From positions 1 to 10,327 of the forward strand of contig DKTP01000060.1 in NCBI GenBank assembly GCA_002473085.1: a DNA stretch of 10,327 bases. Direction: 5' to 3'. Position 1 is the first letter of the stretch. Every line of letters starts with the position of its first letter. The translations under genes were made by a program, and so were the position numbers. The notes under the pieces were generated by a model. That model was not told where the DNA came from. It saw only the letters and a program-made list of their open reading frames with translations, and searched no databases. Origin of the DNA: Anaerolineales bacterium UBA7227 (GTDB taxonomy: Bacteria > Chloroflexota > Anaerolineae > Anaerolineales > Villigracilaceae). This document shows positions 1 through 9,145 of the stretch, piece after piece.

Positions 1-1
1 C

Positions 2-112
2 CGCGTCCAGCGTGGCGGGTCGTTCAACAACAATAGTGACAACGCCCGCTGTGCGTTCCGCAACAGGAACAATCCAGACAACTCCAACATCAACAACGGG
101 TTTCGGGTGTGT
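2..112 (+). other. Putative DGR variable region (VR), 5' end possibly outside window
   Basis: The codons read as a series of AAC/AAT triplets in which several positions hold TTC (23, 56), AGT (35), TCC (83) or ATC (89). Each is reachable from AAC or AAT by changing adenines only, as expected for a VR copied by mutagenic retrohoming from an AAC-rich template. The GC-rich end at 98-109 (GGGTTTCGGGTG) would be the initiation-of-mutagenic-homing side. That this is a VR rather than the template repeat is inferred from the non-Asn codons. It needs the matching template repeat, which is not in the window. Confidence 0.55.
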
Positions 113-364
113 GCGTCCCATGCCTTTCCAAGTTATATGCACATCTCCGGGTTCTCCAAAGATTCGGAGATTTGCAGCGAGCCGGCAATGCTCTCCGTTT
201 ACGGACGGAAGCCGAGGCAAAACAGGAGAGATAGCGCGGTTGTGTCCTGTCTGGGCGTTTTCCGTCTTCATCAATGGGCAATGGAGGCGGGCAGCCCCCT
301 GCGGGGGCGCTGCGCGGGGAAGGGCGCTCCGACAAATATAAAAAAGCCCCGCTCGTTGGAGTAG
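2..364 (+). CDS. C-terminal part of a DGR-type target protein (FGE-sulfatase/C-type-lectin fold), 5' truncated
   Basis: The gene enters from the left edge and reads from base 2 to a TAG at 362-364. The first ~37 residues carry the hallmark of formylglycine-generating-enzyme-like domains used as targets of diversity-generating retroelements: RGGSFNNNSDNARCAFRN, then RNNPDNSNINNGFRV. Eleven of 29 residues in the core are Asn, nearly all AAC. FGE-like domains of this type form a lectin-like fold whose exposed residues are varied by A-directed mutagenesis. In the same frame the reading continues for ~80 residues (from CASHAFPSYMHI) that are Arg/Cys-rich and have no domain I recognise. DGR variable regions usually lie near the C-terminus, so this tail may be incidental read-through of non-coding DGR DNA. 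No reverse transcriptase or Avd gene is visible, so the DGR assignment rests on this segment alone. The alternative is an ordinary SUMF1-type enzyme, but then the Asn density would be unusual. Confidence 0.7.
   Translation, partial: RVQRGGSFNNNSDNARCAFRNRNNPDNSNINNGFRVCASHAFPSYMHISGFSKDSEICSEPAMLSVYGRKPRQNRRDSAVVSCLGVFRLHQWAMEAGSPLRGRCAGKGAPTNIKKPRSLE
291..313. other. Hairpin with 4-nt loop downstream of the VR
   Basis: GCAGC (291-295) plus CCCC (296-299) pair with GGGG (304-307) and GCTGC (309-313), giving nine base pairs, a TGCG loop and one bulged C at 308. DGR target genes commonly have a short hairpin or cruciform with a 4-nt loop downstream of the variable region, which promotes homing. 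This one is about 180 bp past the VR, farther than in the studied phage example, so its role is uncertain. A second, weaker hairpin (ATCTCCG 143-149 / CGGAGAT 165-171) is nearer the VR. Confidence 0.35.
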
Positions 365-398
365 CGTTTCGCGAATCTCCGGGCGGGGCGCCCTTTTT
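346..398 (+). terminator. Structured intrinsic terminator after the DGR-type gene
   Basis: GCCCCGC (346-352) pairs with GCGGGGC (383-389), GGAG (358-361) with CTCC (377-380) and GCG (364-366) with CGC (370-372), forming a long interrupted hairpin. It is followed by GCCC and a run of five T (394-398). The TAG stop of the upstream reading frame lies inside the hairpin. Confidence 0.7.
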
Positions 399-790: not shown

Positions 791-1801
791 ATGAACACCT
801 CCGACTTCGACTATCCCCTCCCCGAATCCTCCATCGCACAGACTCCCCTCGAGCCGCGCGACTCCTCGCGTCTCCTCGTCTTGAAGCGCGGGACGCCGAA
901 TGTGGAACACCGTCTCTTCCGCGAGATCGGGGAGTATCTCCGCCCGAACGACCTCCTCGTCCTCAACCAGACGCGCGTCATCCCGGCGCGTCTGTTTGCG
1001 CGCAAATCCACGGGCGGACGCGTCGAACTGCTGCTCCTCCGCCGCCGCGACCTGTTGACGTGGGAGGCGCTGGTCGGCGGGAAAGGATTGCGGATAGCCA
1101 GAAAGGTAAAGGTGGAAGACGGCCCCGAAGCCGAGATCGTGGAATTGCTGAACGGCTCCGGGCGGCTCGTCCGCTTCTCCGAACCCATCGAGCCGTATTT
1201 CCCGAAGGCGGGACACGTCCCGCTCCCGCCGTACATCCACGAGGAGTTGAAGGACCCCGAGCGCTATCAAACCGTCTACGCGCGCGAGTCCGGCTCTGCC
1301 GCCGCGCCCACGGCCGGACTCCACTTCACGCCGCGGCTGCTGGACGAGTTGCAGGGCAGGGGAGTGAAGATCGCCTACGTCACATTGCATGTCGGTCTCG
1401 ACACCTTTGCCCCCGTCAACGAGGACGACCCCGCCGCGCACAAGATCCACACGGAGTGGTGCGAACTTCCGCAAGCCGCCGCCGACGCCGTCAACGAAAC
1501 CAAACGCCTCGGCGGACGCGTCATCGCGGTCGGCACAACCTCCGTCCGCACCCTCGAAACCGCCGCCAATCTCCAATCTCCAATCTCTGCTTACTCTGGC
1601 CCCACCTCCCTCTTCATCCTCCCCGGCTATCAATTCAAAATCGTGGACGCCATGATCACAAATTTCCACCTGCCCAAGTCCACGCTGATCATGTTGGTCA
1701 GCGCCTTCGCGGGGCGGGAGAAGATTCTCGAAACATACCAACTCGCGGTCAGGGAAGGCTATCGCTTTTACTCTTTCGGCGATGCGATGTTGATCCTCTA
1801 A
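791..1801 (+). CDS. queA: S-adenosylmethionine:tRNA ribosyltransferase-isomerase QueA
   Basis: QueA transfers and isomerises the ribose of S-adenosylmethionine onto preQ1 at the wobble position of tRNAs with GUN anticodons, giving epoxyqueuosine. It is a cytoplasmic enzyme. The 336-residue product has the usual length and family landmarks: FDYPLPESSIAQTPLEPRD with SRLLVL (6-31), NQTRVIPARL (59-68), AAPTAGLHFT (171-180), LHVGLDTFAPV (199-209), VGTTSVRTLETAA (247-259) and ITNFHLPKSTLIMLVSAFAG (289-308). The start at 791 gives the standard N-terminus. An in-frame ATG at 776 would add five residues, and ATGs farther upstream lie before a terminator, so they are excluded. No Shine-Dalgarno is visible. 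Residues 260-266 are encoded by 7-bp repeats in a variable loop. The gene leads a likely operon with the uracil-DNA glycosylase and the S51-like gene. Confidence 0.96.
   Translation: MNTSDFDYPLPESSIAQTPLEPRDSSRLLVLKRGTPNVEHRLFREIGEYLRPNDLLVLNQTRVIPARLFARKSTGGRVELLLLRRRDLLTWEALVGGKGLRIARKVKVEDGPEAEIVELLNGSGRLVRFSEPIEPYFPKAGHVPLPPYIHEELKDPERYQTVYARESGSAAAPTAGLHFTPRLLDELQGRGVKIAYVTLHVGLDTFAPVNEDDPAAHKIHTEWCELPQAAADAVNETKRLGGRVIAVGTTSVRTLETAANLQSPISAYSGPTSLFILPGYQFKIVDAMITNFHLPKSTLIMLVSAFAGREKILETYQLAVREGYRFYSFGDAMLIL
1564..1584 (+). repeat. Heptanucleotide repeats CTCCAAT inside queA
   Basis: Two exact CTCCAAT units (1571-1577, 1578-1584) follow a degenerate one (CGCCAAT, 1564-1570). They are in frame and encode the NLQSPIS stretch in the loop between the SVRTLETAA and FILPGYQ motifs, a region that varies in QueA. 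The same unit recurs in the gap after queA. Confidence 0.75.
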
Positions 1802-1848: not shown

Positions 1849-2520
1849 ATGCAAACTCTCACCGCCCTCAATCAACAAATCACTTCCTGCCGTCTCTGTC
1901 CCCGCCTCGTCGCTTGGCGCGAGGAAGTGGCGCGGGTCAAGCGCAAGGCGTATATCAACGAAGAATACTGGGGCAAGCCCGTCCCCGGATTCGGCGATCC
2001 GCGAGCGCGCGTCCTTGTAGTGGGACTCGCCCCCGGCGCGCACGGCTCCAACCGCACGGGACGCCAATTCACCGGCGACGCCTCGGGCAATTTTCTCTAT
2101 CCCGCCCTCTTCCGCGCCGGGTTTGCGAACCAGCCCGTCTCGGTCTCGCGCGACGACGGCCTGACTCTGCGCGACCTGTACCTCACCGCCTCCGCGCGCT
2201 GCGTCCCTCCCGACAACAAACCCACGCCCGAAGAACTCGCCAACTGCCAGCCGTATTTGGAAGCGGAGTTGAAAATCATCCGTCCCAAAGTGATCGTGTG
2301 TTTGGGACGCGTCGCCTTCGAGCGGATTTTAAAAATTTATGGCCTGCGAATCTCGGAATATAAATTTTCGCACGGCGCGCGTTATCGGCTGGACGCGGGC
2401 CCCTGGCTTCTCTGCTCCTACCACCCCAGCCAGCAAAATACGCTGACGGGAAAACTCACCGTCGAAATGTTCGACGAAATCTGGCGGCAAGCCAAATCCC
2501 TCCTCGATACTGCCCACTGA
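1849..2520 (+). CDS. udgB: Family 5 (UDGb-type) uracil-DNA glycosylase, Fe-S protein
   Basis: The enzyme removes uracil and some other deaminated bases from DNA as the first step of base excision repair. The product is 223 residues. Four cysteines, C14 and C17 (CRLC) plus C118 and C133, match the 4Fe-4S ligands of family 4/5 glycosylases. Motif A, GLAPGAHGSNRTGRQFTGD (59-77), is the family-5 form, with Ala-Pro-Gly-Ala-His in place of the catalytic Asp or Asn of other families. Motif B is HPSQQN (192-197) followed by TLTGKLT. The ATG at 1849 gives the expected N-terminus. The frame stays open far upstream across queA, but that reading is a shadow. No Shine-Dalgarno is present, only the heptad repeats ending 6 bp before the start. 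The last three codons (Thr-Ala-His) and the TGA stop lie inside another heptad repeat. It is likely co-transcribed with queA. Confidence 0.94.
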   Translation: MQTLTALNQQITSCRLCPRLVAWREEVARVKRKAYINEEYWGKPVPGFGDPRARVLVVGLAPGAHGSNRTGRQFTGDASGNFLYPALFRAGFANQPVSVSRDDGLTLRDLYLTASARCVPPDNKPTPEELANCQPYLEAELKIIRPKVIVCLGRVAFERILKIYGLRISEYKFSHGARYRLDAGPWLLCSYHPSQQNTLTGKLTVEMFDEIWRQAKSLLDTAH

Positions 2521-2568: not shown

Positions 2569-3606
2569 ATGACTCCCGGACGCATCGCCTTTCTTGGATC
2601 GGGCGAGACCTCCCTCGCGGGCGGCCGCGTCTTCGAGACTCTCGCCCGCCTCCTTCCTGACCCGCCGCGGGCCGCGATCCTCGAGACGCCTGCCGGCTTC
2701 GAGCTGAACTCCGCCTCCGTCGCGGGACGCGTCGCCGACTTTCTTCGGACGCGCCTGCAAAATTACAATCCCCGCGTGGACGTGGTCCCCGCGCGCAAAC
2801 GTCATTCCCCTTTCAGCCCCGACGACCCCGAAATCTTAAAACCCCTCCTCGACGCCAATCTCATTTTCATGGGACCCGGCAGTCCCACGTATGCCGTCCG
2901 CCAGTTGAAAGGGACTCTCGCCTGGGACCTGATCCGCGCGCGTCATCGCCTCGGCGCGGCGCTCGTCTTCGCCTCGGCCGCGACGATCGCGGTCGGCGCG
3001 TGGACTCTGCCCGTGTACGAAATTTACAAGGCGGGAGAAGACGTCCGCTCCCTGCCCGGGCTCGATCTGTTCGGCGATTTCGGCGTTTCGCTTTCCTTCA
3101 TCCCTCACTGGAACAACGCCGAGGGCGGCGAGGATTTGGACACCAGCCGCTGCTTCGTCGGCATGGAGCGCTTCGCGCAGTGGCGCGCCGCCCTGCCGCC
3201 CGGCCAGACGATCCTCGGCCTGGACGAGCATACGGGCTTGGTCGTGGACTTCGAAAAGCAGGAATGTACGGTCAGCGGGGTGAGTTCGGTTTCGTTGATA
3301 CGAGATCGCGATCTGAAAATCTACGCCTCGGGAAAAGTATTTCCGCTCGCCGAATTGGGTGAATTCAAAGCGCCCGCGCCGGAGACGGGTATCTCGTCCG
3401 CCGCATGGGAACTGGCGCGCGGCGCGGGTCGGACGGAGTCGGAATCTCCCGACGCGGAGACGCTGTCCCTGCTCGACGCGCGCGGACGGGCGCGCGCCGC
3501 GAAGGACTGGGAGACCTCCGACCGTTTGCGCGATCAGATTGCCGCCCGCGGCTGGTCGGTGACCGATACCGCCGAAGGCCAGACCGTGAAGAAGAATCCC
3601 CGATAA
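2569..3606 (+). CDS. Peptidase S51/type 1 glutamine amidotransferase-like protein with CysRS-type C-terminal tail
   Basis: The product is 345 residues with two parts. Residues 4-245 resemble the cyanophycinase/peptidase-S51 class of the glutamine-amidotransferase fold: a first strand RIAFLGSGETS (5-15), FMGPGSPTYAV (100-110), a nucleophile-elbow-like FASAA (134-138, candidate Ser136), IPHWNN (178-183, candidate His180) and ILGLDEHTGLVV (215-226). S51 enzymes are serine peptidases cleaving after acidic residues or acting on cyanophycin or alpha-aspartyl dipeptides, but the substrate here is unknown. Residues ~295-341 (LLDARGRARAAKDWETSD, then RLRDQIAARGWSVTDTAEGQ) match the C-terminal anticodon-side helix bundle of cysteinyl-tRNA synthetase, with its ending 'D-x-x-E-G'. 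There is no signal peptide, so it is cytoplasmic. The ATG lies directly after the heptad array with no Shine-Dalgarno. It is third in the queA-udgB series. Catalytic activity is not established by what can be seen. Confidence 0.85.
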   Translation: MTPGRIAFLGSGETSLAGGRVFETLARLLPDPPRAAILETPAGFELNSASVAGRVADFLRTRLQNYNPRVDVVPARKRHSPFSPDDPEILKPLLDANLIFMGPGSPTYAVRQLKGTLAWDLIRARHRLGAALVFASAATIAVGAWTLPVYEIYKAGEDVRSLPGLDLFGDFGVSLSFIPHWNNAEGGEDLDTSRCFVGMERFAQWRAALPPGQTILGLDEHTGLVVDFEKQECTVSGVSSVSLIRDRDLKIYASGKVFPLAELGEFKAPAPETGISSAAWELARGAGRTESESPDAETLSLLDARGRARAAKDWETSDRLRDQIAARGWSVTDTAEGQTVKKNPR

Positions 3607-3799: not shown

Positions 3800-4819
3800 A
3801 TGGATGCCGACGATTCATTAATTGCGCTCATCTACAATCAGGAAGAGGAGATTGTTAAGGGCGATTCGCAAGACCTGATCGCGTTGCAGTACACCACGAA
3901 GACAGCCACATCCATATACGAAGCCTTGAAACGTCTCGGCTATCCGACGGTGATGGTGCCGGTGCGGGACGACCTGGAGGCGTTCGCCCGCGAACTGGGA
4001 CAGTATTCGCCGCGCAATACTTTTGTGTTTAACGTTTGCGACGGATTCGCCGGGGACAATTTCAGCGCGTCCCTCATTCCGCAGGCGCTCAAGGAACTGG
4101 GCTTTAAATATACAGGATCGAAATCCGAGGCGGTCCGCTTATGCACAGACAAGGCGCGCGCCAAGCGCCGCCTCCTCCGGCAGGGAGTTCCGACTCCCGC
4201 CTATCAGTTGTTCTCCAGGCCCAAAGGCGGAGTGTCGCTGCAATTCCCCGCCATCGTCAAGCCGGTCCGTGAGGACGCCAGCCTGGGCATTAACGAAAAT
4301 TCGGTGGTGACCAACGCCAGCGATATGTTTGACCGCGTGGATTACGTGGTGAGCGAGTACCGCCAGCCCGCGCTCGTGGAAGAATACATCACCGGGCGCG
4401 AGTTCTCCGTCTCGATGTGGGGCAACGGCACAATGGAAGTGATGCCCATTTCGGAACATGATTTTTCCGCAGTGGACGATCCGCTGAAATCGCTCCTCAC
4501 CTATGAGTCCAAGTGGCTGGAAGATTCGTTCACCTACAACTCGTTCAGCGTGATCTGTCCCGCCGAGCTGGCCAAAAACGAGGAAGAGACCATCAAGACG
4601 ACGGCCGTCAACGCCTTCCGCGCCATCGGACTGCGCGACTTCGGCCGCGTGGACATGCGTTATCGCGACGGCATCCCCTACGTCATTGACATCAACGAAC
4701 TTCCCGATCTCGCTCCCGACGCCGGGTTTGCCAACAGCGCGGAGAAGGCCGGCTATCCCTACGACCAGATGGTGGACCGCATCCTCAGCCTGGCGCTGCA
4801 CCGCGAAGGTTGGAAATGA
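3800..4819 (+). CDS. D-alanine-D-alanine-ligase-like ATP-grasp enzyme
   Basis: ATP-grasp ligases join a carboxylate, activated as acyl phosphate, to an amine. The Ddl branch makes D-Ala-D-Ala or other dipeptides. The product is 339 residues. Ddl-like landmarks are FNVCDGFAGDN (77-87), where Ddl has 'FN..HG..GEDG', KYTGSKSEAVRLCTDKARAK (103-122), VPTP (130-133), IVKPVREDASLGI (152-164, ATP-binding Lys154), VEEYITGREFSV (193-204), LRDFGRVDMR (278-287) and VIDINELPDLAP (295-306, Mg ligands D297/N299). The final motif has Asn-Glu-Leu-Pro-Asp-Leu where true Ddl has Asn-x-x-Pro-Gly, and the His of the N-terminal 'HG' is absent. I therefore do not assign D-Ala-D-Ala activity; another amino-acid or peptide ligation is likely. 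It overlaps the GNAT gene by 4 bp, so the two are probably coupled in translation. It is cytoplasmic. Confidence 0.85.
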   Translation: MDADDSLIALIYNQEEEIVKGDSQDLIALQYTTKTATSIYEALKRLGYPTVMVPVRDDLEAFARELGQYSPRNTFVFNVCDGFAGDNFSASLIPQALKELGFKYTGSKSEAVRLCTDKARAKRRLLRQGVPTPAYQLFSRPKGGVSLQFPAIVKPVREDASLGINENSVVTNASDMFDRVDYVVSEYRQPALVEEYITGREFSVSMWGNGTMEVMPISEHDFSAVDDPLKSLLTYESKWLEDSFTYNSFSVICPAELAKNEEETIKTTAVNAFRAIGLRDFGRVDMRYRDGIPYVIDINELPDLAPDAGFANSAEKAGYPYDQMVDRILSLALHREGWK

Positions 4820-5265
4820 TCTTCGAACCAGCCAAACCGGAAGACCGCCAGGGCATCCTGGCGGTCACCGCGAAGATAGACGTTTTCACGGACGAGGAAA
4901 AAGATACCGTCCGCGAGCTGTGGGATGACGGCGGCTACGATTTCCTCGTCGCGCGCCGCGACGGACGGGTGGTCGGGTTTACCTGCTACGGCGAGCGCGC
5001 CCTCACCGAGGGGACGTACGACCTGTTTTGGATCGCCGTGGACCCGTCCGCGCGGAGGCTGGGGACAGGGAAAAGCCTGATGCGCGCGACCGAGGCCGAG
5101 GTCCAGAAAAGAGGCGGACGGATTCTGATCGCGGAGACCTCGGGCATGGAGTCGTACGCGTCCACGCGCGCGTTCTACGAATCGGTCGGATATCAAAAAG
5201 AAGCGGTCATCCGCGACTTCTACAAGCCGGGCGACGACCTGGCGATCTACACGTTACACTTTTAA
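4816..5265 (+). CDS. GNAT-family N-acetyltransferase
   Basis: The product is 149 residues. The acetyl-CoA pyrophosphate-binding motif appears as FWIAVDPSARRLGTGKSLM (71-89), with RRLGTGK matching the R/Q-x-x-G-x-G/A pattern. The C-terminal STRAFYESVGYQKEA (116-130) is the usual GNAT 'A..FYE..GF' segment, with Tyr121 in the general-acid position. The ATG at 4816 shares ATGA with the stop of the ATP-grasp gene. A TTG two codons earlier is possible but less likely. The target is unknown. The tight coupling suggests it acetylates the product, or an amine substrate, of the ATP-grasp ligase. GNAT enzymes also serve in drug or amino-acid detoxification, which cannot be excluded. Confidence 0.88.
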   Translation: MIFEPAKPEDRQGILAVTAKIDVFTDEEKDTVRELWDDGGYDFLVARRDGRVVGFTCYGERALTEGTYDLFWIAVDPSARRLGTGKSLMRATEAEVQKRGGRILIAETSGMESYASTRAFYESVGYQKEAVIRDFYKPGDDLAIYTLHF

Positions 5266-6649: not shown

Positions 6650-9145
6650 ATGAGAACCCGATCTATCATTATTTCAGCGGCTGTGCTGACCGCCCTGCTG
6701 TTTTCCTTCCTGCCGATGGCGGGAACGGGACCGCAGACGGCCGCCGCCGCGACCGTCTGCGACGCCGCGCAGTTCATCGCCGACGTGACCGTCCCCGACG
6801 GCTCGATCATGGCGCCGGGAACGGCATTTAAGAAGACCTGGCGGCTGAAGAACGTCGGGACCTGCACGTGGAGCAAGGATTACAGCCTTGTGTACGCGAG
6901 CGGCGAGAAGTTTTCCGGTCCCACTTCGGCTCTTTTGGGCGTCGCGGTGGCCCCCGGCCAGACGGTGGACATCTCCGTTGATCTGACCTCCCCGTCCAGC
7001 GCTGGAAAATTCCGAAGCAACTGGCAGCTGGCAAACGCCTCGGGCAAGACCTTTGGTATCGGTTACAACGCTAAAGGCGTGTTCTGGGTGGAGGTCGTCG
7101 TCTCGGGCGGCGGCAGCGCCGGCGTGGTCTACAACTTCGCGGACAAAGCCTGCGACGCGGCCTGGTCGAGCGGCGCGGGGACTCTCCCCTGTCCCGGAAC
7201 GGACGGCGACGCGAAGGGCTTTGTGCTGAAACAGGCCAATCCCAAACTGGAGAACGGCGTGGCAGACGCCAACCTCGGCCTCCTCGTCTCGCCGCAGGCC
7301 GTCAACAACGGCTACATACAGGCGGTGTATCCCGCCTTCCGCGTCCAAAGCGGCGACCGCTTCCAGGCCATCGTCAGCTGCGAACACAACGCTACATCCT
7401 GCTACGTCGCTTACCGCCTCGATTATCAGATCGGCTCGGGCGCAGTGCAGACCTTCTGGACGTTCCGCGAACGATACGAGGGACAGTTCTACCGCGCCAA
7501 CCTCGACCTGAGCCGGCTGGCCGGCCAGGACGTGAAGTTCATCCTCTACCTCAGCGCCTACGGCTCCCCGACCGGCGACCGCGCCTTGTGGGGCAACCCC
7601 GTCATCTATCGTTCGGGCGGCGGGAACGTTACGCCCGTCCCGACCACGCCCGGCCCCATTTCGGGCTGCGACAAGGCGCAGTTCATCGCCGACGTGACCG
7701 TGCCGGACAAATCGGTCTTCGCGCCCGGCGCGGCCTTCAAGAAAACGTGGCGATTAAAGAACATCGGTACTTGCACGTGGACGACCGGCTACTCCCTCGT
7801 CTTTTCCAGCGGCGAGAAGATGGGCGGCCCCTCCTCGGCGGCTTTCCCCACTAACGTCGCTCCCGGCCAGACCGTGGACCTCTCCGTCAACCTGACGGCC
7901 CCTGCCGCCAGCGGGACCTTCCGCGGCAACTGGATGTTGAAGAACGCCAGCGACCAGTTGTTCGGCATTGGCGCGAAGGCCAGCAACCCCTTCTGGGTGG
8001 AGATCGTCGTCACTGGCGGGCCGACCGTCACGCCCGGCCCCACCGTCACGCCCGGCGGACCGACCGTCACGCCCTCATCCGACACGGCCTATGACTTTGC
8101 GGCGCACGCCTGCGAAGCGAAGTGGGTGAGCGGCGCGGGCGTCCTGCCTTGCCCCGGCGCTGACGGCGACGCGAAGGGCTTCGTGTTGAAACTGACCAAT
8201 CCGCAACTCGAAACCGGCGCCGCCGATCCCCGTCCCGGCCTGCTGACCAACCCGCAGAACACCACCAACGGTTACATCCAGGGCATCTTCCCCGCTTTCC
8301 GCGTGCAGAAAGGCGACCGCTTCCAGAGCATCGTCAACTGCCAGTACGGAGCCGCCTCCTGCTATGTGATTTTCCGCCTCGACTACCAGATCGGCGCCAA
8401 CCCGCCCAAGACCTTCTGGACCTTCGGCGAAAAATATGACGGGCAGTACTACCAGGCCAACCTCGACTTAAGTTCCCTCGCCGGGCAGGACGTCCAGTTC
8501 ATCCTGACCGTGATGGCCGGGACCTACGCCGCTGGCGACCGCGCCGTTTGGGTCGCGCCGCGCATCCAGCGCGTCGGCGCCTCCGAGAGCGTCTCTTTGG
8601 CGACGACGGCCGCCGCGACCGCGACCCCGTCCGCGCCGACGACTGCCCCGACGACCGCCGCGACCGCGACCCCGTCCGCGACGGATACCACAGGCTGGAC
8701 CGTCTTCCAAAACCAGAAATACGGCTTCACGTTCAAGTATCCGCCCGGCTCCACCGTCGCTTTGCAGGAGGACGACGACGCCCGCATAGACCTGCCCTTT
8801 GCGCAGGGGACGCTCCTTACGTCCAAGTACATTGACATTAAAGTTGTCGAAGGCGCCAACCCGTGTAAAAACAGCGTCGCGGGAAGCCCGCCCGCCTCTT
8901 CGGGCGACGCGGCGTTCAACGGCATTACCTTCCTGAAAGAGACCGGCAGCGAACCGGCGGCCGGAAACGTGTACGATTGGGAAGTCTATTCCGCCGCCCG
9001 TCCGACCAACGCCTGCGTCAGTATCGGCTTTGTCCTGCGCTCTTCCAGCCCGGGCGCTTACTCCACACCGCCGCCCGCCTTTGACCGCGCTGCGGAGTCT
9101 GCCGTCTTTGCGGTCATCATGTCCACCTTCGCGTGGATACCGTAG
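6650..9145 (+). CDS. Large secreted protein: two NBR1-type Ig-like domains, two beta-sandwich domains, PsbP-like C-terminus
   Basis: The product is 831 residues. It starts with a Sec signal peptide: MRTR, a hydrophobic run IIISAAVLTALLFSFL, then an Ala-rich cleavage region near 31-35. Cys37 is not in a lipobox (ATVC) and recurs in both Ig-like copies, so it is probably structural. Order: NBR1-type Ig-like domain 1 (~37-152: FIADVTVPDG, FKKTWRLKNVGTCTW, PGQTVDISVDL, FWVEVVV); an unnamed beta-sandwich-like domain 1 (~160-322: YNFADKACDAAW, GYIQAVYPAFRV, GDRFQAIVSC, RANLDLSRLAGQDVKFIL); linker with Thr/Pro; Ig-like 2 (~340-455); linker of TVTPG repeats; sandwich 2 (~481-643); linker of TATPSAPTT type (~646-681); and a PsbP-like domain (~682-831: FQNQKYGFTFKYPPGS). 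The NBR1-type domain is frequent in secreted Anaerolineae proteins. Paired cysteines suggest disulfides outside the cell. Function is unknown: binding or adhesion at the cell surface is plausible, and no catalytic motif was seen. It has its own promoter and a strong RBS. Confidence 0.9.
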   Translation: MRTRSIIISAAVLTALLFSFLPMAGTGPQTAAAATVCDAAQFIADVTVPDGSIMAPGTAFKKTWRLKNVGTCTWSKDYSLVYASGEKFSGPTSALLGVAVAPGQTVDISVDLTSPSSAGKFRSNWQLANASGKTFGIGYNAKGVFWVEVVVSGGGSAGVVYNFADKACDAAWSSGAGTLPCPGTDGDAKGFVLKQANPKLENGVADANLGLLVSPQAVNNGYIQAVYPAFRVQSGDRFQAIVSCEHNATSCYVAYRLDYQIGSGAVQTFWTFRERYEGQFYRANLDLSRLAGQDVKFILYLSAYGSPTGDRALWGNPVIYRSGGGNVTPVPTTPGPISGCDKAQFIADVTVPDKSVFAPGAAFKKTWRLKNIGTCTWTTGYSLVFSSGEKMGGPSSAAFPTNVAPGQTVDLSVNLTAPAASGTFRGNWMLKNASDQLFGIGAKASNPFWVEIVVTGGPTVTPGPTVTPGGPTVTPSSDTAYDFAAHACEAKWVSGAGVLPCPGADGDAKGFVLKLTNPQLETGAADPRPGLLTNPQNTTNGYIQGIFPAFRVQKGDRFQSIVNCQYGAASCYVIFRLDYQIGANPPKTFWTFGEKYDGQYYQANLDLSSLAGQDVQFILTVMAGTYAAGDRAVWVAPRIQRVGASESVSLATTAAATATPSAPTTAPTTAATATPSATDTTGWTVFQNQKYGFTFKYPPGSTVALQEDDDARIDLPFAQGTLLTSKYIDIKVVEGANPCKNSVAGSPPASSGDAAFNGITFLKETGSEPAAGNVYDWEVYSAARPTNACVSIGFVLRSSSPGAYSTPPPAFDRAAESAVFAVIMSTFAWIP
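6758..8575 (+). repeat. Two-copy internal duplication of the Ig-like plus sandwich module
   Basis: Copy 1 covers 6758-7614 and copy 2 covers 7667-8575. Ig-like starts are offset by exactly 909 bp (303 codons). A 26-bp identical stretch (6767-6792 and 7676-7701) encodes QFIADVTV, and similar blocks occur around GDGDAKGFVLK and TFWTF. Synonymous and replacement changes between copies show the duplication is not recent overall, so the identical stretch may reflect conversion. Confidence 0.85.
8024..8074 (+). repeat. Triple ACCGTCACGCCC repeat coding a Thr-Val-Thr-Pro linker
   Basis: Exact 12-bp units at 8024-8035, 8042-8053 and 8063-8074 encode TVTP three times, the flexible linker between Ig-like domain 2 and sandwich domain 2. 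Confidence 0.85.
8612..8680 (+). repeat. 24-bp direct repeat in the Ala/Thr/Pro linker
   Basis: Positions 8612-8635 and 8657-8680 are identical and lie 45 bp apart, so the frame is kept. They encode AATATPSA twice in the low-complexity linker before the PsbP-like domain. Confidence 0.85.

Follow-up and report, generated by a model that had tools for sequence, protein, structure and literature searches.

A frame dense in Asn/AAC codons opens the left edge of contig C6 of Anaerolineales bacterium UBA7227 (G000, a genome of 182 contigs), and it raises the question of which half of a DGR lies there, the copy that is rewritten or the copy that is read, and of where the reverse transcriptase (RT) that would act on it is encoded. 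The window analyzed here is the whole contig, 10,327 bases long; the frame (RVQRGGSFNNNSDNARCAFRNRNNPDNSNINNGFRVCAS) covers bases 2-118, read from base 2, and the left end of the repeat coincides with the contig edge (G000:C6:1). The likeness of the frame to an FGE C-terminus is weak (profile match to PF03781, E 3.6e-4, below the curated cut-off). With a probability of roughly 0.7, we consider that this repeat is the template of a DGR, that its cassette contains no RT, and that the RT acts on it in trans.

When its own genome was searched with window bases 1-230, the repeat was found again at the end of contig C121, at 92% identity over 119 bases; a second match lies on contig C53 (100 bases, 74% identity), and three additional matches are short and weak. 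In an ungapped comparison of the window and C121 copies, 10 of 119 positions differ, and all 10 are A in the window copy and G, T or C in the C121 copy (A>G at five, A>T at four and A>C at one), while none of the 90 non-A sites differs. Differences restricted to adenines would arise by chance with a hypergeometric P of 1.9e-7, and the repeat is real, not a chance resemblance. In DGRs the template is the copy that carries the adenines, which identifies the window copy as the template repeat (TR) and the C121 copy as the variable region (VR); the search of G000 found no closer template with A where the window copy differs. There is next to no doubt that this feature is the template repeat of a DGR:

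1..119, plus strand: template repeat, with its partner VR at G000:C121:1-119 on the minus strand (adenine-only differences; TR-profile match at G000:C6:2-118, which is itself a member of that profile; position after avd in the same species)

The target gene on C121 encodes 429 aa with TIR_2 and FGE-sulfatase domains and is open at the contig edge; its last 39 codons up to that edge are the VR, and the contig stops there, leaving the stop codon outside. Named relatives of this target are from Anaerolineales or Anaerolineae. Judged by its sequence, the protein would carry a C-type-lectin/FGE fold at its VR end, and we suspect it to be a defence sensor whose VR lies at the presumed ligand-facing end. 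A sequence-only reading of the window had proposed DGR membership with an FGE-type target, which the adenine-only pair and the TIR-FGE gene on C121 bear out. It had also expected a near-identical repeat with differences at A positions only, and the C121 repeat of 119 bases and 92% identity is such a repeat, but the adenines belong to the window copy. Its remark that the codons TTC, AGT, TCC and ATC can be derived from AAC or AAT is correct as arithmetic but carries no signal, because these codons are identical in the two copies.

The gap between C121 and C6 is unassembled in G000, and neither avd nor an RT is visible there at this locus. In a same-species genome (G007; 4 contigs, 96% complete), both G000 flanks are joined in one locus, at 97.9% identity for the C121 flank and 97.1% for the window flank. 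The order there is ruvB, a TIR-FGE target with its VR, avd, TR, then queA and further window genes. The G007 Avd scores above the NF033474 cut-off, and the VR and TR are separated by about 478 bp, with avd in the interval; they differ at 9 of 81 positions, all of them A. No RT was found at this cassette in the 18 kb stretch examined. Bases 1-42 of the window TR have no equivalent in the G007 TR, and the two targets are 55% identical in the TIR and 48% in the FGE domain; the cassette therefore differs between strains inside conserved flanks. The G007:C4 cassette appears swapped relative to that of G000, the target being 48-55% identical and the flanks 97-98%, with one breakpoint some 0.2 kb inside the target and the other at base 43 of the TR. 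Two window genes anchor the locus downstream:

791..1801, plus strand: queA, anchoring the ruvB - DGR cassette - queA locus at its downstream end (PF02547; relatives after the TR in seven genomes)
1849..2520, plus strand: uracil-DNA glycosylase superfamily gene (udg), second downstream anchor (PF03167)

Relatives of queA follow the TR in five genomes with RT-less cassettes (G007, G022, G029, G017 and G033) and in two with RT-containing cassettes at the same ruvB-queA site (G023 and G057). ruvB and/or queA with udg flank the RT-less cassette in the same five genomes, and in G000 they do so on two contigs; ruvB lies beyond the examined stretch or contig in G033 and G057. The RT-less cassettes at this site belong to two genera (g1 and g6), and their targets are TIR-FGE (G000, G007), KAP NTPase-FGE (G022, G017) and NACHT-FGE (G033, G029) proteins; a cassette seems to be retained at the site, with its effector domains being replaced by others. 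Elsewhere in the window, a small ORF between the trailing RNA and queA (453-671) has a sub-threshold match to a RelB-like antitoxin (PF18506, 20.8 bits, cut-off 27), a run of short TGATCACTGAT-like repeats lies between genes at 2516-2569, with similar runs after the TR in G004:C11, a 345 aa protein (2569-3606) matches Pfam only in its 45 C-terminal residues (CysS_C), and an 831 aa protein (6650-9145) has two N_BRCA1_IG domains.

As in other DGRs, a structured RNA follows the TR, and its parts in the window are:

119..391, plus strand: structured RNA after the TR, candidate RT-Avd binding or priming site (nine-cassette alignment, covariation, fold z -3.33)
124..230, plus strand: long-range helix directly after the TR, 124-129 with 225-230 (98.1% of cells paired)
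141..173, plus strand: hairpin of 141-152 with 162-173, its pairing kept and its sequence changing (9 of 11 pairs changed on both sides)
181..238, plus strand: conserved RNA core, in which 210-235 is the search pattern (alignment; pattern in 13 of 152 family genomes)
346..391, plus strand: GC hairpin and then a T run, a terminator-like RNA end, with conserved CAAATATAAAA before it (two alignment helices)

In the alignment of nine RT-less cassettes, the window included, the structure has 59 pairs with 95.7% of cells paired, 24 of them changed on both sides. The covariation score of 0.426, as against 0.204 in shuffles, was reached by none of 500 shuffles and approached by no slid version of the structure, which was predicted from the same alignment as was scored, a procedure that favours structure somewhat. 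A separate hairpin, CCGCCGTAAGGCGG, was found seven times in a search of six genomes, each of which has one or two copies, and every occurrence is in a DGR locus (7/7): at 7154-7167 of examined stretch L002, 12096-12109 of L024 (G007:C4), 2026-2039 of L086 (G045:C371) and four more positions. It lies between the target and the RT, avd or TR, and may be either a target-site hairpin or a terminator. In phage DGRs, as the accessible portion of the source describes them, a hairpin with a GRNA loop stands 4-34 bp downstream of the VR (PMC3240598), which the GTAA loop of these relatives and their greater distance from the VR do not fit. Before the TR in G059, G029 and G017, no hairpin of that kind was found.

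To place the window among its relatives, we built a profile from 10 TR translations, that of the window among them, and searched 152 genomes of the family, 118 of which gave matches. The resulting set of 71 loci comprises 60 TR-like loci among the matches listed, a few of which are more VR-like (G045:C270, G102:C64), and 11 loci already in the set; PMLN01000104.1 (G008) and G045:C371 share coordinates and were treated as one locus. Over these 71 loci, more than 600 bases of RT are present in 49, a partial RT in five and none in 17. Seven of the 17 lie at contig edges (G109:C349, G109:C198, G071:C414, G133, G102:C64, G004:C11 and G000:C6) and 10 away from them (G022, G049:C82, G057:C26, G011:C112, G059, G029:C362, G017:C16:79621, G033:C20, G007 and G045:C371), and at two of the five partial loci (G083 and G075:C474) the RT remnants are within contigs. 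A VR-TR gap of about 0.5-0.75 kb was dropped as a sign of RT loss, because the RT follows the TR in 12 cassettes (13 counting the VR-like G045:C270).

The trailing RNA delimits a subfamily within this set. Compared with all 71 TR-start sequences, window bases 120-400 match themselves and nine of the 70 others at E <= 7e-17 (G007, G022, G059, G033:C20, G029:C362, G133, G017:C16:79621, G049:C82 and G045:C371), and no RT was found beside those nine loci in the stretches examined. The best RT-containing cassette reaches 39 bits with the same bases, and the RT-less G057:C26 and G011:C112 are outside the best 30 matches. The 26-base core pattern, at up to two mismatches, occurs once in each of 13 of the 152 family genomes, with 0 for the reversed-pattern control; among 400 genomes of the order it was found in 11, every one of which belongs to the family. 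Ten of the 12 other members with the RNA core have clear context and no RT, and in these 10 the chromosome continues for about 2 kb or more on both sides; G133 has no RT on a contig that ends 160 bp past the TR, and G135 is at a contig edge. Beyond the target, avd and ruvB/queA/udg, no neighbour gene that might replace the RT is common to the 13 loci; those common to two or three of them are an ORF of 77-88 aa (G133, G029, G017), another ORF (G007, G017) and several in G022 and G033. From these relatives, the window cassette is likely to have no RT of its own and to belong to this non-autonomous DGR subfamily.

Two further arrangements were observed in the subfamily. In G133:C3, a DDE transposase gene (3876-5234 of the examined stretch) separates the VR from the TR of a cassette without an RT, and these two repeats differ at 16 A and at no other base; a novel polymerase had been considered for this 1.77 kb interval and was rejected, the long ORF there being the transposase. 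In G028:C17 and G127:C113, the subfamily RNA directly follows the VR, and the examined stretch contains no TR and no RT; recombination between VR and TR that deleted the template could give this arrangement.

The best of the competing explanations is an ordinary complete DGR in cis, with an RT and avd (about 1.5 kb) in the C121-C6 gap that were lost as short contigs not kept. Eight other DGR loci of the genus show the order target-RT-Avd-TR, or as much of it as their contigs contain (G000:C53; G002 C104, C210, C248 and C289; G005 C27 and C38; and the end of G004 C13 with the start of C11), and the shortest of 10 sampled G000 contigs measures 3443 bp, so that a 1.6 kb piece could be missing from the assembly. 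RT-containing cassettes also occupy the same locus in G023 and G057; however, the same-species allele in G007 has no RT, and the trailing RNA of the window groups with RT-less cassettes only, which makes the complete DGR in cis an unlikely account. The sequence-only reading had allowed for an RT upstream of the repeat or elsewhere in the genome. Judged by the relatives that share its trailing RNA, an RT upstream of the window TR, in the C121-C6 gap, appears unlikely, yet two genomes do have RT-containing cassettes at the same site; the second possibility is realized, as a DGR RT with avd is present on C53.

Contig C53 holds a complete DGR in the order NACHT-FGE target, RT (PHROG 1423, E 4e-115), Avd and TR, with a TR/VR pair that differs at 20 A and at no other base, apart from one 3-base gap, and its RT is the sole RT found in G000. 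This DGR resembles the window cassette in its homologous FGE VR, in a TR that is 74% identical over 100 bases and in related RNA tail motifs, but it differs in having its own RT and avd and in an RNA tail that scores only 37 bits against that of the window. We lean slightly toward C53 as the locus that serves the window cassette in trans. A search of the genus for the avd family gave 19 matches in eight genomes; five that passed the cut-off, with no RT in the examined stretch (G000:C71, G007:C3, G004:C1, G003:C57 and G005:C48), may be other four-helix proteins, and G006:C16 and G001:C27 are more distant RT/Avd loci (37-38% identity). At G004:C14:62107, a NACHT-FGE target is followed by the hairpin CCGCCGTAAGGCGG and a truncated avd, with no TR or RT seen, as in a decaying cassette.

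The C53 RT was searched against nine subfamily genomes beside G000, with G028, G127 and G135 outside the search. A DGR-like RT, present over most of its length and 59-67% identical to the C53 RT, is encoded elsewhere in the genome in G049, G017, G029, G033 and G045, that of G045 reaching a contig edge at 314 aa. No full-length DGR-like RT was found in four of the nine (G007, G022, G133 and G059), and in G133 no RT of any kind. The sole RT of G007 (592 aa, 28% identical to the C53 RT) lies on another contig beside a Mutator-type transposase, and in G059 a DGR-like RT is present only as an 82 aa piece, together with an RT flanked by cas6 and cas1 and a further RT at G059:C24. Stand-alone RT genes between cas6 and cas1 were observed at G059:C91 and G022:C13. 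The RTs of G007, G022:C13 and G059:C91 were rejected as hidden DGR enzymes, as they adjoin a transposase or cas6/cas1 and are 28-30% identical to the C53 RT. The four genomes would represent one of three situations, namely incomplete bins, recent loss or an unrecognised enzyme.

The TR/VR pairs of the subfamily bear on whether rewriting has continued. VR partners were located by local alignment within the examined stretches, and the 15 of 71 loci without a VR there were left out of the pair counts. Non-A differences number 0 in six of 10 subfamily pairs and 1, 2, 5 and 9 in the others, so that eight of the 10 have 0-2 at about 88 sites (61 in G007), whereas the TRs of different members differ at a median of 17.5% of non-A sites (minimum 4.7%); the VRs have therefore been rewritten after the lineages split. 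Two observations weigh against the proposed reading. The four genomes without a full-length DGR-like RT (G007, G022, G133 and G059) have 0, 2, 0 and 0 non-A differences, and the drifted pairs of G029 and G017 (5 and 9 of 87 non-A sites) are from genomes that do have an RT, opposite to the correlation one would expect. A sites have changed equally often in the subfamily (134/266) and in RT-containing pairs (606/1205), and at 82/178 in six other pairs without a full RT. Pooled non-A changes amount to 17/855 in the subfamily (G017 and G029 contribute 14 of them), 4/499 in the other six pairs and 11/3247 in 40 RT-containing pairs, a contrast between subfamily and RT-containing pairs that is not significant when counted by pair (P 0.19).

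The three subfamily members that keep avd (G007, G029 and G033) form one clade with support of 100/99 and no RT-containing member inside, in a tree of 57 Avd proteins (two of 59 were dropped as too short) for which the program warned of long branches elsewhere; six other Avd entries, marked as lacking an RT or as lying at a contig edge, are dispersed through the tree. Among the three, avd dN/dS is 0.09-0.10 at dS 0.8-1.3, indicating purifying selection. A frozen relic, in which the RT is lost and the TR/VR pairs record past activity, or activity in other cells with an intact version, is less likely again than a complete DGR in cis. It would agree with G007, G022 and G133, where a DGR-like RT was not found, with the RT remnants in G083 and G075, with the drift in G029 and G017, with the vanished TR of G028 and G127 and with the missing TR bases of G007, but it sits poorly with the intact C53 RT and the 0/90 non-A differences in G000, with the selection on the avd of three RT-less members and with TR/VR pairs that co-evolve across species.

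That the assembler separated two alleles of a single VR into C6:1-119 and C121:1-119 is highly improbable even though each copy stops at a contig edge: every difference is an A in the same copy, trailing RNA rather than target sequence lies downstream of the window copy, and the G007 locus, with both copies about 478 bp apart and avd between, rules it out. The assignment of the window copy as the variable region, which the sequence-only reading had drawn from an open frame with an FGE-like C-terminus, is scarcely credible, as the differing adenines lie in the window copy, the VR with non-A bases at all 10 sites is in the TIR-FGE target gene on C121, and in G007 the counterpart of the window copy follows avd and is not part of the target gene.

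The TR/VR pair, its adenine specificity, the target domains, the same-species gene order and the conserved RNA are established, and beyond them we propose an RT-less cassette that is served in trans. An error-prone RT-Avd complex would copy the TR RNA of the window together with its structured tail (119-391), turning adenines into random bases, and the cDNA would replace the VR at the 3' end of the C121 TIR-FGE gene, thereby varying the presumed ligand-facing end of the suspected defence sensor. The RT, and perhaps also Avd, would be supplied in trans, in G000 from the complete DGR on C53. More broadly, there may be a lineage of non-autonomous DGRs, each with a target, an optional avd and a TR with its own conserved RNA, at the ruvB-queA site and elsewhere, long free of an RT and still rewritten by one from another locus that recognises foreign template RNA; we judge the odds of this to be even. 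Should the RT-less cassettes prove active, a single RT would be able to diversify several templates and several sensors, counts of hypervariable defence genes in a genome would be too low, and the templates that an RT accepts would be defined by the RNA tail.

The target of the Bordetella phage BPP-1 DGR has a lectin-type fold. As far as the available part of the literature describes it, this system (mtd/avd/TR/brt) resembles the window cassette in its A-specific transfer from TR to VR, in Avd and in the structured RNA after the TR, a spacer RNA that recruits RT-Avd in BPP-1 (PMC12875486). It differs in that the BPP-1 parts are all found at one locus, whereas the window TR has no visible RT beside it and the relatives that share its RNA are without one. 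According to the accessible portion of its description, Thiohalocapsa PB-PSB1 has DGRs with STAND/TIR/FGE-type targets and degenerate loci missing machinery, and trans diversification was proposed for some, although for two loci with broken RTs, intact-RT variants in the population are the preferred account over trans action (PMC10907252). By analogy, such variants could offer an alternative to trans action for the RT-less subfamily. In the portion of that description available, the remote VRs of Thiohalocapsa match the TR of a complete DGR, whereas each TR-bearing RT-less cassette here keeps its own TR, VR and distinct conserved RNA, and two genera have the cassettes at a common chromosomal site, while others have them at different places.

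Partial TR-VR pairs, possibly without an RT, have been accepted in human microbiome contigs (PMC4159848), which in the part of that source available is a rule for incomplete contigs, whereas the 10 clear cases here are flanked on each side by at least about 2 kb of chromosome. Within the accessible parts of the open-licence literature, including PMC10907252, PMC12875486, PMC3240598, PMC4159848, PMC8144416, PMC8867640 and PMC4891356, we met no account of a conserved TR-VR lineage that lacks an RT and keeps its own TR. The FGE-type DGR is an already known kind, of which the window holds a further member, and the RT-less subfamily, to which the window very probably belongs and for which we infer a trans mechanism, appears to be a new form of it. 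If they are indeed rewritten by an RT from another locus, the RT-less cassettes would be to complete DGRs what SINEs are to LINEs.
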